A program made the translations under genes and the position numbers. Under the pieces are notes generated by a model. It worked only from the letters and a program-made list of their open reading frames with translations, had not been told where the DNA came from and searched no databases. A stretch of 64,000 nucleotides of DNA from Microlunatus panaciterrae (GTDB lineage Bacteria > Actinomycetota > Actinomycetes > Propionibacteriales > Propionibacteriaceae). The stretch lies in the NCBI RefSeq assembly GCF_016907535.1, contig NZ_JAFBCF010000001.1, positions 1,178,001-1,242,000 on the forward strand, written 5' to 3'. Below are positions 42,394 through 47,265 of the stretch, piece after piece (position 1 is the first letter of the stretch; each line of letters opens with the position of its first letter).

Positions 42394-43557
42394 TCAGGAG
42401 GTGACGGTTGGGGTGTCGTCGGAACGGTCCAGCCAAACGCCTCGGCGCATCACCCGGAGCAGCGAACCGTGATCGTCGACCAGGCAGAAGTCCGCCCGGT
42501 TGCCGACGCTGATTTGGCCGACCTCAGCGAGCCCGTGGGCCCGCGCCGGGGTCTTGGCTGCCATCCGTGCGGCGTCGGGAATGGAGATCCCGACCTGGGT
42601 CACGAGGAAGGCGAACGCGCCGGCCATCGTCAGCGTCGAGCCGGCGATCGACCCGGGCTGCCCGTCGGCGCCCACCAGCCGCGCCACCCCGTCCTCGACC
42701 TGGACGTTCAGCGCGCCGAGCCGGTAGTGGCCGTCGGCCATCCCGGCAGCCACCATGGCGTCGGTGATCAGCGCGACCCGGTCCGGTCCGGCCGCGGCAA
42801 TGGCCATCGCGATCACGTCCGAATGCAGATGGGTGCCGTCGCAGATCAGCTCGACGATCGTCAGCGGGTCGGTCAGCAGCCGGGGTACGGGGCCCGGGGT
42901 GCGGTGGTGGATCGACCGCATGGCGTTGAACAGGTGGGTGGCCACCGTGCCGCCGGCCGCGATGCCTGCGGCGATCGCCTGCTCGTCGCCGTCGGTGTGG
43001 CCGAGCGCGGCCACCACTCCGCTGTGGCTGAGCCGTTCGATGGCGGCCAGTGCGCCCGGCAGCTCGGGGGCGATGGTGACCATGGCAATGTGACCCTGGC
43101 CCGACGTCAGCACCCGGTCCAGCAGGTGCGGCTGCGGCAGCCGGAGCAGGCTGGGATCGTGCGCGCCGCACTTGGCCGACGACAGGAACGGCCCCTCGAG
43201 ATGGATGCCGGCGATCTCGCCCTGCCGCACCAGCGGCACCAGCGTCTCGATCTGGTCGCAGAGCGTGTCGATGTCCACCGTCACCAGGGAAGCGAAGCTG
43301 GTGGTCGTGCCGTGGCGGCGATGATAGTCCAGCGCCCGGAGCGCCTCGGCGGGGTCGGTGGTGGCGAAGTCGGCGCCACCACCACCGTGGACGTGTGTGT
43401 CGACGAAGCCCGGCACCAGCCAGCCGTCCAGTGCCTCGGCGTCCGGAGCACCCTCCGAGAGGTCGACGATCCGACCGTCGGCCACGGTGACGGTGCCGCC
43501 CCCGACATCGCCGGCTTCGGTCAGCAGATGCTCGACCCGGAACCGCTGCTCACTCAT
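42394..43557 (-). CDS. nagA: N-acetylglucosamine/galactosamine-6-phosphate deacetylase
   Basis: 387 aa amidohydrolase. Metal and catalytic residues: HVHGGGG (His55, His57), HLEGPF (Glu121), and later His in ALGHTDG, HLFNAM and Asp in LITDAM. Deacetylates GlcNAc-6-P or GalNAc-6-P. ATG 43557 has AGGAGG 6 bp upstream and overlaps the kinase gene by 8 bp. In the company of a SIS isomerase, ROK kinase and tagatose-type aldolase, the natural substrate may be GalNAc-6-P (AgaA), but the sequence alone does not separate AgaA from NagA. Confidence 0.9.
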   Translation of the reverse strand: MSEQRFRVEHLLTEAGDVGGGTVTVADGRIVDLSEGAPDAEALDGWLVPGFVDTHVHGGGGADFATTDPAEALRALDYHRRHGTTTSFASLVTVDIDTLCDQIETLVPLVRQGEIAGIHLEGPFLSSAKCGAHDPSLLRLPQPHLLDRVLTSGQGHIAMVTIAPELPGALAAIERLSHSGVVAALGHTDGDEQAIAAGIAAGGTVATHLFNAMRSIHHRTPGPVPRLLTDPLTIVELICDGTHLHSDVIAMAIAAAGPDRVALITDAMVAAGMADGHYRLGALNVQVEDGVARLVGADGQPGSIAGSTLTMAGAFAFLVTQVGISIPDAARMAAKTPARAHGLAEVGQISVGNRADFCLVDDHGSLLRVMRRGVWLDRSDDTPTVTS

Positions 43558-44488
43558 GACTGCCTCCTGCCGCACTGTGCACCCGGTCCCAACCGATCAG
43601 CCCGGCGCCGATGACGCCCGCGTCGGCCCCGAGGCTGGCGACCTCGATTCTCGGCGTCCGCTGGAAGTGCAGCCGGTCGGTCAGCCCGGCCGTGAGCTGC
43701 GGGAAGATGATGTCCGCCGCGCCGGACAGGCCGCCACCGATGACGATCACCTCCGGCGCCAGCAACGTCACATAGATGGTCAGGGCCTCCACCAGCGCCT
43801 CGGAGGCGATGGCGAAGGCCTGCCGGGCCGCCACCTCGCCGGCTCTGGCCCGGTCGGCGATCTCCCGGGCCTCGACCGACGGTGCGGCACCCGTGATCCG
43901 GTGATAGCTGCGCGCGACCCCGGCAGCCGAGGCGACGGTCTCCAGGCATCCGACCCCTCCGCACGGGCATTTCGCATCCCCGGCGGCCGGCACCTGGATG
44001 TGGCCCAGCTCACCGGCGTACCCGTCGGCGTCCAGCATCTGCCCGTCGACGATCATCGCCCCGGCGATGCCGGTGCCGAGCGGCAGGAACAGCAGGTTGT
44101 GGGCGCCGACGCCGCTGCCCAGCCGCCATTCCGCCAGACCGCCGCAGCGGACGTCGTGTGCGACCGCACCGGGCAGGCCGGTGAGGTCGCTGAGGAGCTG
44201 CCGCAGCGGAACGTCGTACCAGCCGATGTTGGCGGCCGCCCGTACGGTCCCTGTGGCAATGTCGATGATACCTGGCACCACCACGCCGAACCCGACACAG
44301 TTGCCGCCGGCGCCGGCCGTGGCGGCGAAGGCGGTGACCTGCCCGGCCAGCCAGGTGACGATCTCGGCGGGCCCGCCGTCGTGATAGGTGGGGACCCTGG
44401 TCTGGCCGCGGACGGTGCCGTCGGCGTCGGCCAGCGCCAGCTTCGTCAGCGTGCCGCCGAGGTCGACGGCGACGACGAACTCACTCAT
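43550..44488 (-). CDS. ROK family sugar kinase (N-acetylhexosamine or glucose kinase)
   Basis: 312 aa. The phosphate-1 motif DLGGT is at residues 9-13. The catalytic Asp is near 112 (AHDVRCGG), and the zinc site is formed by His163 (ELGHI) and CPCGGVGCLE (Cys174, 176, 181). It probably phosphorylates N-acetylgalactosamine or N-acetylglucosamine for the following deacetylase. Translation is coupled to nagA by an 8-bp overlap. Confidence 0.87.
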   Translation of the reverse strand: MSEFVVAVDLGGTLTKLALADADGTVRGQTRVPTYHDGGPAEIVTWLAGQVTAFAATAGAGGNCVGFGVVVPGIIDIATGTVRAAANIGWYDVPLRQLLSDLTGLPGAVAHDVRCGGLAEWRLGSGVGAHNLLFLPLGTGIAGAMIVDGQMLDADGYAGELGHIQVPAAGDAKCPCGGVGCLETVASAAGVARSYHRITGAAPSVEAREIADRARAGEVAARQAFAIASEALVEALTIYVTLLAPEVIVIGGGLSGAADIIFPQLTAGLTDRLHFQRTPRIEVASLGADAGVIGAGLIGWDRVHSAAGGSHE

Positions 44489-44519
44489 CAGCCCTGCTCC
44501 CGGAGTCTGGGTGATCGGC

Positions 44520-45404
44520 TCAGTCGGACAGCACGACGGAGCGGGTCAGGCTTCGCGGCTGGTCGGGGTTGAGGCCGAGGTCGATGGCCCGCGCGACCGC
44601 GACCCGCTGCAGCAGGACCAGCTCGGCCAGGGCGTCCCGCCCAGACTCGACGAAGGTGGCGCCGGTGGCGGCGACGTCCTCGGCCAGGCCCTGGGGAGCG
44701 GTGCCGAACATCCAGACCACCCGGCCCGGAGCGGCGATGCTGATCGGCCCGTGCCGGTAGTCCATCGCCGGGTAGGACTCGGCCCAGCTGGAGGAGGTCT
44801 CGCGCAGCTTGAGTGCGGCCTCATGCGCCACGCCGATGGTCCAGCCGCGGCCGAGGAAGGTCATCTGCTCGGCCCGCACCAGGTCCTGGTTGAGCGGGAC
44901 GGTGAGCACCTCCTCGGCGGCGGCGATCACCGGCGCCAGGTCGAAGCCGAAGGCGGCCCGGAACAGGGCCAGGGTCGAGGTCGCGAAGCGGGTCTGCACC
45001 ACCGACTGCTCATCGGCGAAGCTGAGGTCGACGACCTGGTCGGCCAGCCCGACCACCGGTGTGTCGAGGTCGCCGGTCACCACCATGGTCGGCACTCGGC
45101 CCTGCAGCGAGCCCAGCAGGTCGACCACCTCTGTCGTCGTCCCGGAACGGGTGAGGGCGACAACCCGGTCGTAACGGCGCCCGGTGGGGAACTCGGTGGC
45201 GGTGAACGCGTCCGACTCGCCGAGCCCGAGGCTCTCGCGCCAGGAGGCGATGATCTGGGCCACGAACCAGGAGGTGCCGCAGCCGACGAAGGCCACTCGT
45301 TCACCCGACCGAGGCAGTTGCGGCTCCACCGAGGGGGCCAGCTGGACGGCCCGGGTCCAGCACTCGGGCTGGGAGAGGATCTCCTCCTCGACAAAGAAGG
45401 TCAT
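44520..45404 (-). CDS. SIS-domain sugar isomerase/deaminase (AgaS-like)
   Basis: 294 aa with two SIS domains. The first has AFVGCGTSWFVAQIIASW (about residues 38-55) and the phosphosugar loop ALTRSGTTTEVVDLL (about 83-97). The second has GRGWTIGVAHEAALKLRETSSSWAESYPAMDYRHGPIS (about 185-222), like the isomerase half of GlmS. It lacks the glutaminase domain, so it acts as a deaminase/isomerase on galactosamine- or glucosamine-6-phosphate. First gene of the operon. GAGGAG precedes ATG 45404. Confidence 0.85.
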   Translation of the reverse strand: MTFFVEEEILSQPECWTRAVQLAPSVEPQLPRSGERVAFVGCGTSWFVAQIIASWRESLGLGESDAFTATEFPTGRRYDRVVALTRSGTTTEVVDLLGSLQGRVPTMVVTGDLDTPVVGLADQVVDLSFADEQSVVQTRFATSTLALFRAAFGFDLAPVIAAAEEVLTVPLNQDLVRAEQMTFLGRGWTIGVAHEAALKLRETSSSWAESYPAMDYRHGPISIAAPGRVVWMFGTAPQGLAEDVAATGATFVESGRDALAELVLLQRVAVARAIDLGLNPDQPRSLTRSVVLSD

Positions 45405-45452
45405 GCGTTCTCCTCAAGTGACGATTCTGTTGATTTTCTTCCCAAACGAACA

Positions 45453-45466
45453 GATATGAACATATC
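45453..45466. promoter_or_regulatory. Palindromic operator GATATG-AA-CATATC
   Basis: A perfect 6+2+6 inverted repeat in the AT-rich 62-bp gap between the SIS operon and the DeoR regulator, ending directly before the ATG at 45467. The repeated GAACA/GAACAT within CGAACAGATATGAACAT could also be a DeoR-type direct repeat. A likely binding site for the adjacent DeoR protein. Confidence 0.6.
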
Positions 45467-46267
45467 ATGCATCTCGTGAGCGAGCAGCACTTGACAATGA
45501 CGCGGGCGGAACGGCTGGCCGCGTTGTTGGAGCGTCTGGTTGCTGCGGGCAAGATCGATGTCGAACCGGCGGCGGACCAGTTCGGGGTGTCGGCCGCGAC
45601 CATTCGCCGCGACCTGGACCACCTGGCCGACCAGCAGCTGCTGACCAGGACCCACGGCGGAGCGGTGCCGAACACCACCTCCTACGACCTGCCGTTGCGC
45701 TACAAGTCCGCGAACCGGGGCGAGGCCAAGACTCGGATCGCGCAGCGGGCCGTGCAGATGATGTGGCCGGGCTGCACGATCTCCCTGAACGGCGGAACCA
45801 CGACGGTGGAGATCGCCCGGGCCATCCCGACCGTCGAGGCGCTCCGGCACGGCATCACGGTGGTCACCAACGCCATCAACATCGCCACCGAGCTGACCGT
45901 GCGCCCGTTCATCAAGATCGTCGTCTGCGGCGGCGTGGCCCGCCCGCAGAGCTATGAGCTGGTCGGTTCCATCGCCGCCGAGACGCTGGGGCGGCTGTCC
46001 CCCGACATCTGCTTCCTGGGCGCCACCGGGCTCGACGCCGAGGGGGGCATCACCACCTACGACGAGTCGGAGGCGGCGATCAACCGCGTCATGGTGACCC
46101 AGGCGAAGCGGACGGTGGTGGTGGTCGACTCCTCCAAGATCGGCACGGTCGGGTTCTGCCGGATCTGCAACGTGGAGGAGGTCTCGACCATCCTCACCGA
46201 CAGCAACGCCGACCCTGAGGCGATCGCCCGGCTGCGCGAGACCGGCGTCGAGGTCATCCAGGCCTGA
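45467..46267 (+). CDS. DeoR family transcriptional regulator (AgaR-like)
   Basis: 266 aa. N-terminal DeoR helix-turn-helix: ERLAALLERLVAAGKIDVEPAADQFGVSAATIRRDLDHLADQQLLTRTHGGAV (about residues 15-67). C-terminal DeoRC sugar-phosphate sensor with ISLNGGTTTVEIARAI (about 105-120), and the later FLGATGLDAEGGITT and VVDSSKIG. Divergent from the amino-sugar operon it probably represses. ATG 45467 leaves no room for a ribosome binding site after the operator; ATG 45497 (MTRAERL) or a leaderless start is possible. Confidence 0.87.
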   Translation: MHLVSEQHLTMTRAERLAALLERLVAAGKIDVEPAADQFGVSAATIRRDLDHLADQQLLTRTHGGAVPNTTSYDLPLRYKSANRGEAKTRIAQRAVQMMWPGCTISLNGGTTTVEIARAIPTVEALRHGITVVTNAINIATELTVRPFIKIVVCGGVARPQSYELVGSIAAETLGRLSPDICFLGATGLDAEGGITTYDESEAAINRVMVTQAKRTVVVVDSSKIGTVGFCRICNVEEVSTILTDSNADPEAIARLRETGVEVIQA

Positions 46268-46309
46268 AGGACCGGGCTGAAAACGTACGCCCACAACGGA
46301 ATTAACCCA

Positions 46310-46338
46310 TTGACCGTTGACGGATCGCCGCCTACCTT
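46310..46338 (+). promoter_or_regulatory. Strong sigma70-type promoter of the acVLRF1 leader
   Basis: TTGACC (46310-46315), a 17-bp spacer and TACCTT (46333-46338). This is one of the best consensus matches seen in the window. Transcription would start about 46345, just before the Shine-Dalgarno of the 12-codon leader ORF. Confidence 0.65.
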
Positions 46339-46369
46339 AGATGCACACGGAAAGGAGGTGGTCCAGAGA

Positions 46370-46408
46370 ATGAGTGACTTTTGGACATGTGAGGTGACGG
46401 CCAGCTAG
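46370..46408 (+). CDS. 12-aa leader peptide MSDFWTCEVTAS upstream of acVLRF1
   Basis: ATG 46370 to TAG 46408 encodes MSDFWTCEVTAS. It is preceded by GAAAGGAGGTG at 46350-46360, an 11-base match to the anti-Shine-Dalgarno of 16S rRNA, far stronger than any other site noticed in the window. Codons AGT, TTT, ACA and TGT are rare in this GC-rich genome. GTCCA/TGGAC around the start codon (46361-46365 and 46381-46385) could form a hairpin. It sits behind a clear promoter and 212 bp before the acVLRF1 gene. Function as a translated regulatory uORF is inference. Confidence 0.6.
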   Translation: MSDFWTCEVTAS

Positions 46409-46428
46409 CCGCCAACCTGTTGATGAAC

Positions 46429-46560
46429 TGGTCCAGAGCGGCCGGCTAATCCACAGCCAACACCCGAACCCGCGAGCCGCCGGTATTGTCCACCGGCCGG
46501 TACTGATCCGGAGACGACTGCACCGCAGCCTGACCGGCAGCACCGAGAGGCTCGCGGGTT
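46429..46560 (+). promoter_or_regulatory. Structured leader RNA between the leader ORF and acVLRF1
   Basis: AACCCGCGAGCC (46467-46478) and GGCTCGCGGGTT (46549-46560) form a perfect 12-bp stem that encloses 70 bases, including the inner hairpin CCGGT/ACCGG (46480-46496). The stem is followed by TTTGTCC and a small CCGTC-TG-GACGG hairpin, resembling an attenuator-type terminator. TGGTCCAGAG at 46429-46438 is a direct copy of TGGTCCAGAG at 46359-46368 next to the leader ORF, offering alternative pairing. Confidence 0.55.
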
Positions 46561-46620
46561 TGTCCGTCTGGACGGTCCTTCGGCACAGCAGTCGGGGCCG
46601 GTCACCACCGAGGAGAGGTC

Positions 46621-47265
46621 ATCAGCACCGAGCGGGCACGTCAGGTCACGATCGCCCGTGACCGGTTGGGTCCCTGGCTCGACGGGTTCCGCGACCGGCA
46701 CGGGCCGACCCGATCCCTCCGTAGCGGCGACGAGCTCGCGTTGGAAGCCCAGGACGGAGCCCGGGCCTGGGTGCATCTCCCGTTCCCGACGCTGGCAGCC
46801 CCGGAGGTCGACTGCGAGAGGTCCGTGCTTGACCATGTGCTGACCGACCGTCGGGTCGGTTGCCTGCTGGTCCGCAGGGGCGGCTTCGCGGTGGGTGTCT
46901 TCGAGGGTCATCGGCTGGTGTCCTCCAAGGTCGGCTCGGCGTACGTCCAGGGCCGCACCAAGGCCGGCGGCTGGTCTCAGCAGCGCTATGCGCGACGACG
47001 CGACAACCAGTCGAGGAAGGCTTATGCCGAGGCGGCCGACGAGGCGGCGGCACTGCTGCTGCCCGAGCTGCCCCGGCTGGAGGCCCTGGTGACCGGCGGC
47101 GACGGGCCCGCCGTCAGCGCCGTCCTGGCCGATCCGAGGCTCGCGCCGCTGCGCCCGCTGGTGCAGCCGCGAGTGCTTCCGGTGCCCGATCCGCGGCTAC
47201 GGGTGCTGCGCGCGTTCGGGGAGCAGTTCCTGGCCGTACGCATCGACCTCAACGACCTCGCCTGA
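46621..47265 (+). CDS. acVLRF1 family peptidyl-tRNA hydrolase (Vms1-like release factor)
   Basis: 214 aa if started at ATC 46621, 199 aa from TTG 46666. The release-factor loop GRTKAGGWSQQRYARRRDNQ (about residues 110-129) carries the GGxxQxR-type signature of Vms1/ANKZF1 enzymes, which cleave peptidyl-tRNA on stalled large subunits. ATC 46621 is chosen because GAGGAGAG sits 4-5 bp upstream and the residues STERARQVTIARDRLGPWLDGFRDRHG form a family-like N-terminus. No ATG/GTG/TTG exists in frame before TTG 46666. The gene stands alone behind the leader region; pdxH is convergent. Confidence 0.82.
   Translation: MSTERARQVTIARDRLGPWLDGFRDRHGPTRSLRSGDELALEAQDGARAWVHLPFPTLAAPEVDCERSVLDHVLTDRRVGCLLVRRGGFAVGVFEGHRLVSSKVGSAYVQGRTKAGGWSQQRYARRRDNQSRKAYAEAADEAAALLLPELPRLEALVTGGDGPAVSAVLADPRLAPLRPLVQPRVLPVPDPRLRVLRAFGEQFLAVRIDLNDLA

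Follow-up and report, generated by a model that had tools for sequence, protein, structure and literature searches.

In the DNA analyzed here, a stretch of 64,000 nucleotides from Microlunatus panaciterrae that we call the window, a long Shine-Dalgarno (SD) sequence and an ORF of 12 codons stand in front of acVLRF1. A first-pass annotation read them as a leader that senses translation trouble and sets the expression of acVLRF1, regarded as a ribosome-rescue gene. The locus raises the question of whether the short ORF serves its neighbor or belongs to an element with a role of its own.

Sequence elements and identity of the RNA

The promoter, the long SD and the micro-ORF of that annotation were confirmed as sequence elements. 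A putative sigma-70-type promoter occupies 46310..46338 on the plus strand, with the -35 hexamer TTGACC at 46310, a spacer of 17 nt and the -10 hexamer TACCTT at 46333, and inspection by eye finds a similar pair 5' of the element in relatives. It had been called near-consensus and is present as described, yet a consensus promoter scan of the window listed none at this position, because TACCTT agrees with TATAAT at 3 of 6 positions. The extended SD, GGAAAGGAGGTGGTCC (46349..46364, plus strand), complements the 16S rRNA tail over 16 bp, two of them G-U by sequence; the 11-base match noticed earlier is the uninterrupted part of this complement, GAAAGGAGGTG, and RNAduplex returns the full 16-bp duplex at -29.8 kcal/mol. 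In a partial RNAduplex scan of the window, which moved in 4-base steps and skipped G-poor stretches and those lacking a G-rich core, the next separate site found reached -21.8 kcal/mol, 8 weaker than the SD. A pattern search places the single genomic match to the 16S-tail pattern GGATCACCTCCTTTCT at the end of the 16S gene (locus L313, by cmscan). The SD core, AAAGGAGGTG, has two copies in the genome of 4,068,014 bases, one in the element and one antisense to the 16S 3' end.

The ORF runs on the plus strand from ATG at 46370 to a TAG that ends at 46408 (46370..46408) and encodes MSDFWTCEVTAS; its open frame, start and stop are conserved in relatives. It does use codons rare in this genome, as had been claimed: judged by 17 long ORFs of the window, AGT, TTT, ACA and TGT make up 5.0%, 2.3%, 4.3% and 13.3% of their synonymous sets. 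Within it lies an SD-like GAGGTG core (46391..46396, plus strand), whose pairing with the 16S tail, at -11.5 kcal/mol, is comparable to that of the SD of acVLRF1 (-11.6). These six columns are invariant in the 79 sequences of alignment A1 (described below), all of which were chosen for holding GAGGTG.

A cmscan search identified this region (46345..46567, plus strand) as a member of Rfam family RF02471, Ms_IGR-5, an "Actinobacteria sRNA", with 87.3 bits against a gathering score of 45 and the full model (1-184) matched; the transcript probably starts near 46345. RF02471 is found at E <= 0.001 in 45 of 57 genomes, our own included, and above the cut-off in 44. There is one copy per genome in this set except in G006, the only genome with two matches, where the second is weak (30.8 bits, G006:C1:1297931-1298063). 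Across the phylum, the model matches 70 of 396 genomes, 35 of them above the cut-off, and a DNA pattern that combines the SD with GAGGTG matches 106 of the 396, some by chance judging by their spacers. The window element thus resembles its family in matching the whole model and in occurring nearly always once per genome. Rfam types the family as an actinobacterial sRNA gene, to which the element adds a conserved ORF and a complement to the 16S tail, and it differs further in a covarying helix that uses the end of the ORF and in having relatives in other phyla.

Passages on this family in the published work describe it as a transcript. In Streptomyces avermitilis the element is an sRNA transcription unit (PMC8780764), in S. 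lividans it was validated by RNA-seq (PMC8079986), and in Mycobacterium smegmatis Ms_IGR-5 overlaps ncMSMEG15794c (PMC10454040). Ribosome footprints on the RNA are reported in M. abscessus and M. smegmatis in a paper which also cautions, in the part concerned, that footprints appear on most characterized E. coli non-coding RNAs as well (PMC4974804). These observations are compatible with a transcript of its own. In the open-licence literature, taken as main texts without supplements, we found neither the ORF nor the 16S complement nor the wider range described. The terms IGR, Rfam, Mycobacter and Streptomyces led to nothing on Ms_IGR-5 in the matching parts of a paper on coding sRNAs (PMC5521070), and term searches also covered PMC9094748 (sRNA terms) and PMC8628891 (IGR), within the parts those terms reach. 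Within this literature, what appears to be new here is the anatomy and the phylogenetic reach of the element; the sRNA transcript and the footprints were already published.

The neighboring gene, outside the element at 46621..47265 on the plus strand, is acVLRF1 as annotated, scoring 164.4 bits with PF18859 against a gathering score of 27.1. Its start is uncertain. In the stretch 46621-46668 it has no ATG, GTG or TTG at the place where the N-termini of relatives align; ATC at 46621, after GAGGAGAGG, looks likely, the alternative being TTG at 46666 with a truncated N-terminus. On the minus strand, 42394-46267 carries what we take from the translations to be sugar-amine genes (NagA-like, ROK kinase, SIS isomerase), and a DeoR regulator recognized by Pfam is divergent from them.

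The distribution of the element relative to acVLRF1 does not bear out a leader. acVLRF1 is present in 43 of the 57 genomes and the element, above cut-off, in 44, with both in 39. The element lies directly upstream of acVLRF1 and co-directional with it in 12 of these 39, namely 11 of the 17 of the window's genus and G024 of the same family. Within the window's family, adjacency accordingly holds in 12 of the 18 genomes with both features; among the 21 such genomes from three other families of the order it holds in none. In G008 other ORFs separate the two. By crude gene calls, the downstream ORF (at least 100 codons, callable) is convergent in 61 of 106 loci. The 45 co-directional loci include 11 in the acVLRF1 cluster and nine in four clusters of two or three; in the remainder, by the same crude ORF calling, the first downstream gene is not common to others. 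We thus found no conserved downstream gene among the actinobacterial loci examined, and the acVLRF1 leader was rejected on synteny (12/39 adjacent, 0/21 in other families, 61/106 convergent). Stalling at Trp-Thr-Cys, which the annotation had offered as the trigger, fails as well. The W and C positions vary in the 12-codon relatives, where G or R stands in place of W, and R, S, Y or E in place of C, so that the expected conservation is found for the ORF and the SD and not for these residues of the peptide.

A conserved reading frame with a drifting peptide

The conservation of the reading frame was assessed with anchors that make no use of the frame, the SD and the first GAGGTG. This pair was found in 111 of 113 actinobacterial loci (L114 and L126, the exceptions, were left out), and 101 of the 111 are distinct. 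The frame is open from the SD in 96 of these 101, compared with 42 and 38 for the two control frames, and the stop falls exactly 15 nt after the start of GAGGTG, again in 96. A canonical start is present at the expected place in 82 elements (41 and 10 in the other frames); the other 19 lack ATG, GTG or TTG there, and several read CTG, ATT, ATC or ACG instead. Five elements miss the stop at 15 nt: L042 has one extra codon, and the other four are one base shorter. In these four (L115, L120, L121 and L124), one base fewer separates GAGGTG from the stop, so that the core is shifted in frame while the ORF is retained; by eye, three start in the new frame with TTG and one with ATT. A separate DNA-pattern scan of genome records, which gave at least 120 matches (titles are available for 80 of the 120 listed, and some genomes are shared with the first set), found the frame kept in 116 of 120 among the matches listed.

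A larger set provides the composition of these ORFs: 183 distinct elements, each required to have GAGGTG, a canonical start, a stop and a loose motif towards the 3' end. The ORFs of this set have 11-19 codons, and the range over the elements as a whole is 10-19. They start with ATG in 106 cases, TTG in 55 and GTG in 22, and stop at TAG in 148, TGA in 23 and TAA in 12; the dominance of UAG (148/183) may reflect the RNA itself (CUAG) or a preference for RF1. In 132 of the 183, the start lies 10-11 nt after GGAGG.

Substitutions were counted in 50 close pairs differing at 1-5 positions, each sequence being used once. In the ORF body, changes number 38, 31 and 30 at codon positions 1, 2 and 3, and in the last five codons 18, 8 and 6; of the 64 single-change codons of the body, 18 are synonymous. 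These 50 pairs reveal no excess at third positions and therefore no sign of selection on the peptide, which we set aside on the basis of these codon-position counts. From these comparisons it seems that translation is conserved and the peptide is not. Measured against what is expected of a dual-function sRNA, the element has conserved translation signals (frame, start and stop) and lacks a conserved peptide.

RNA structure and relatives outside Actinobacteria

The end of the ORF also forms part of a helix. Alignment A1 comprises 79 of 128 elements, picked for diversity from 167 candidates, and since the candidates were pre-filtered by P1 score it leans towards the helix, P1, described here. 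In the window, the 5' strand of P1 (46393..46401, plus strand) consists of the last codons of the ORF, and the 3' strand (46456..46464, plus strand) contributes a downstream CAGYCACC that pairs with them with covariation; the minimum free energy fold of the window sequence contains the same helix. Preceding the 3' strand is a conserved AATCC bulge (46448..46452, plus strand), of which two A columns and one C column are near-invariant in A1. RNAalifold, run unaided on A1, recovers a P1 core in which the last ORF codons pair with the bases immediately 5' of CACC; at two of these pairs, both partners are changed in 27 and 47 sequences. For P1 together with a second, putative helix, P0 (both names are ours), 85.5% of cells in A1 are paired compared with 77.5% in shuffles, and double-change cells number 91 compared with 30.2 in shuffles and 6-21 when the strands are slid. 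Counted by pair, 6 show at least one double change, which is not exceptional, since shuffles give 4.4 and 55 of 500 reach 6, and P0 (GGTCC/GGAC) barely varies in A1. The fold of the single sequence 46344-46580 (z = -3.49) contains P1 as well as a stem at the stop codon. A local hairpin around the stop, the alternative to P1 that an attenuator would call for, scores no better than shuffles in A1 (5.33 and 5.05) and was set aside.

A long terminator-like hairpin with a weak T-tract closes the RNA (46465..46562, plus strand), as judged from the Rfam structure and the fold of 46344-46580. A scan for T-tract terminators found none in the window element, and clear T-tracts follow this hairpin in several loci of other phyla. 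An internal anti-SD is weakly enriched in A1 (25 of 79, compared with 15% of shuffles). In short-looped forms (L207, L221, L251, L225 and similar ones), such a stretch, resembling GGACCRCCU and lying 3' of the stop, might form 8 or more bp with the SD.

Among the matches listed, the genome-record scan includes contigs titled Sumerlaeota, Deltaproteobacteria, Zixibacteria, Bryobacterales, Terriglobia, Nitrospirae and others. Our model R1 matches 9 of 10 of these non-actinobacterial genomes, once each, a figure that is partly circular in that 6 of the 10 loci were among the source sequences of R1. RF02471 itself is not confined to Actinobacteria: a Zixibacteria-titled locus scores 55.9 and an Acidobacteriota-titled one, which may be mis-binned, 50.8, both above its gathering score. 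L221, titled Acidobacteriota, resembles the form in Acidimicrobiia and may be mis-binned. With phylum labels inferred from the record titles of one member genome each, R1 gives one match per genome in 46 of 247 genomes in the phylum of the Bryobacterales genome, 46 of 132 in that of the Zixibacteria genome, 14 of 40 in that of the Sumerlaeota genome and 7 of 267, 3 of them doubtful, in that of the Deltaproteobacteria genome. Several matches lie at megabase positions of long contigs (among them G674:C1:1816824 and G1051:C1:2004824), which argues against contamination. Three loci without the anatomy (L338, L340 and L341, 3 of 7 matches in the phylum of G452, with E from 4e-5 to 9e-4) convey a feel for false positives. 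The only pattern match titled Planctomycetes, L213, was taken as chance, with its stop one base off and its genome lacking an R1 match, and of 18 matches to one pattern in viral contigs, none had the anatomy on reading.

The open ORF that ends in a stop 15 nt past the core is present in 19 of the best 20 of 46 loci in the Bryobacterales phylum, 19 of the best 20 of 46 in the Zixibacteria phylum, 12 of all 14 in the Sumerlaeota phylum and 4 of 7 (one without a candidate) in the phylum of the Deltaproteobacteria genome, counts that lean upwards because the score by which the element of each locus was picked favors a stop 15 nt after GAG. P1 was checked in 58 loci of these phyla, L338, L340 and L341 having been dropped. 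With the locus's own strand, at least 8 of the 9 positions pair in 53 of 58, and strands swapped in from other phyla reach this in 71-93% of draws, so that support for P1 outside Actinobacteria is weak; pairing at 9 of 9 positions occurs in 24 of 58, compared with 8-26% with swapped strands.

A proposed sensor of ribosome occupancy and competing explanations

Comparison of the sequences has shown conserved ORF signals, a covarying P1 and a complement to the 16S tail in Ms_IGR-5. The best explanation that we can offer, tentatively, is an autonomous RNA switched by ribosome occupancy. The SD would load a 30S subunit strongly, and a ribosome translating the ORF, or waiting at its stop, would melt P1. 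At 6 nt from the final sense codon, a distance common for initiation, the internal GAGGUG could hold a terminating ribosome at the stop. Melting of P1 would expose the AAUCC...CAGYCACC strand, and when ribosomes are not loading P1 would close. Because ribosome loading and P1 would exclude each other, the RNA could act as a reporter of occupancy. Once exposed, this strand might have a target in trans, either an mRNA or a protein, or might determine how stable the RNA is. In the window's genus, some read-through into acVLRF1 may occur as a secondary effect. Against such a sensor, the distance of 10-11 nt from GGAGG to the start in most elements is long for efficient initiation, 19 of 101 elements have no canonical start where one is expected, and no downstream gene is conserved across the actinobacterial loci. 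Of the original proposal, a role in reading the state of translation stays plausible, and what falls away is its placement as a leader of acVLRF1.

The long spacing also counts in favor of a trap, the main rival and in our judgment an unlikely one. Here the RNA would hold 30S subunits or ribosomes through the 16-bp SD duplex, as a parking site or a sponge; initiation would be slow because the start is poorly placed, and the internal SD would retain ribosomes at the stop. An SD so extreme that its core is otherwise absent from the genome save antisense to 16S, an internal GAGGTG about as strong as the SD of acVLRF1, and the non-ATG start codons of 77 of 183 elements also fit a trap, but it would have no need for P1 or the AATCC strand, and titration of ribosomes from a single gene copy would, we reason, take very high levels of the RNA. 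Conservation of an unpaired AATCC speaks for an ordinary base-pairing sRNA or a dual-function RNA, with the conserved 3' part or the G-rich 5' part pairing with mRNAs, and with an ORF that serves RNA stability or yields a peptide. The sources that describe the element do so, in the passages concerned, as an sRNA transcript (PMC8780764, PMC8079986). This reading, too, we consider doubtful, since the ORF is retained in nearly every element examined despite the drift of the peptide.

Two further readings are much less probable. The RNA might be a plain mRNA for a functional peptide of 11-19 residues ending in x-E-V-[AT]-x-x, and a C-terminal E-V, with A or T next in most cases, does recur in other phyla. 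These E and V residues, however, are encoded by the GAGGTG core, which overlaps in part with the covarying helix, and their encoding by GAG and GTG in 183 of 183 elements tests nothing because the elements were picked by GAGGTG; with no bias at codon position 3 and one lineage that switched frame entirely, a micropeptide is improbable. The attenuator of the first-pass annotation, in which stalling on the ORF sets read-through into acVLRF1, is very improbable: it draws on the co-directional adjacency in 12 of the 18 genomes of the window's family, and is countered by the absence of adjacency in the three other families, the intervening ORFs in G008, the variable putative stall residues and the terminator-like hairpin at the end of the element.

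Returning to the RNA switched by occupancy, its features recall several known systems. Like leader-peptide attenuators of the trpL and ilvL type, as generally understood, it has a strong ribosome-binding site, a tiny ORF and an ORF end that pairs with a strand near a terminator-like hairpin; unlike them, it has no fixed downstream gene or run of control codons and is reported as a separate transcript. Dual-function sRNAs of the SgrS type are likewise short RNAs with a conserved ORF, whereas here the peptide sequence is not conserved and docking to 16S is far stronger. tmRNA is also a ribosome-engaging RNA that carries a short ORF, but the element has no visible tRNA-like part and would engage by SD pairing.

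In terms of function, a far-reaching reading that we regard as plausible, though somewhat less likely than not, is a hitherto unrecognized housekeeping RNA of several phyla that needs translation but not the peptide, either an autonomous sensor of ribosome state or a ribosome-parking RNA. If the only full-length anti-SD complement of a genome is indeed kept about once per genome, this would be a widespread bacterial RNA coupled to translation, with a range spanning actinomycetes, acidobacteria and several uncultured phyla, that has so far been filed as an unexplained actinobacterial sRNA.
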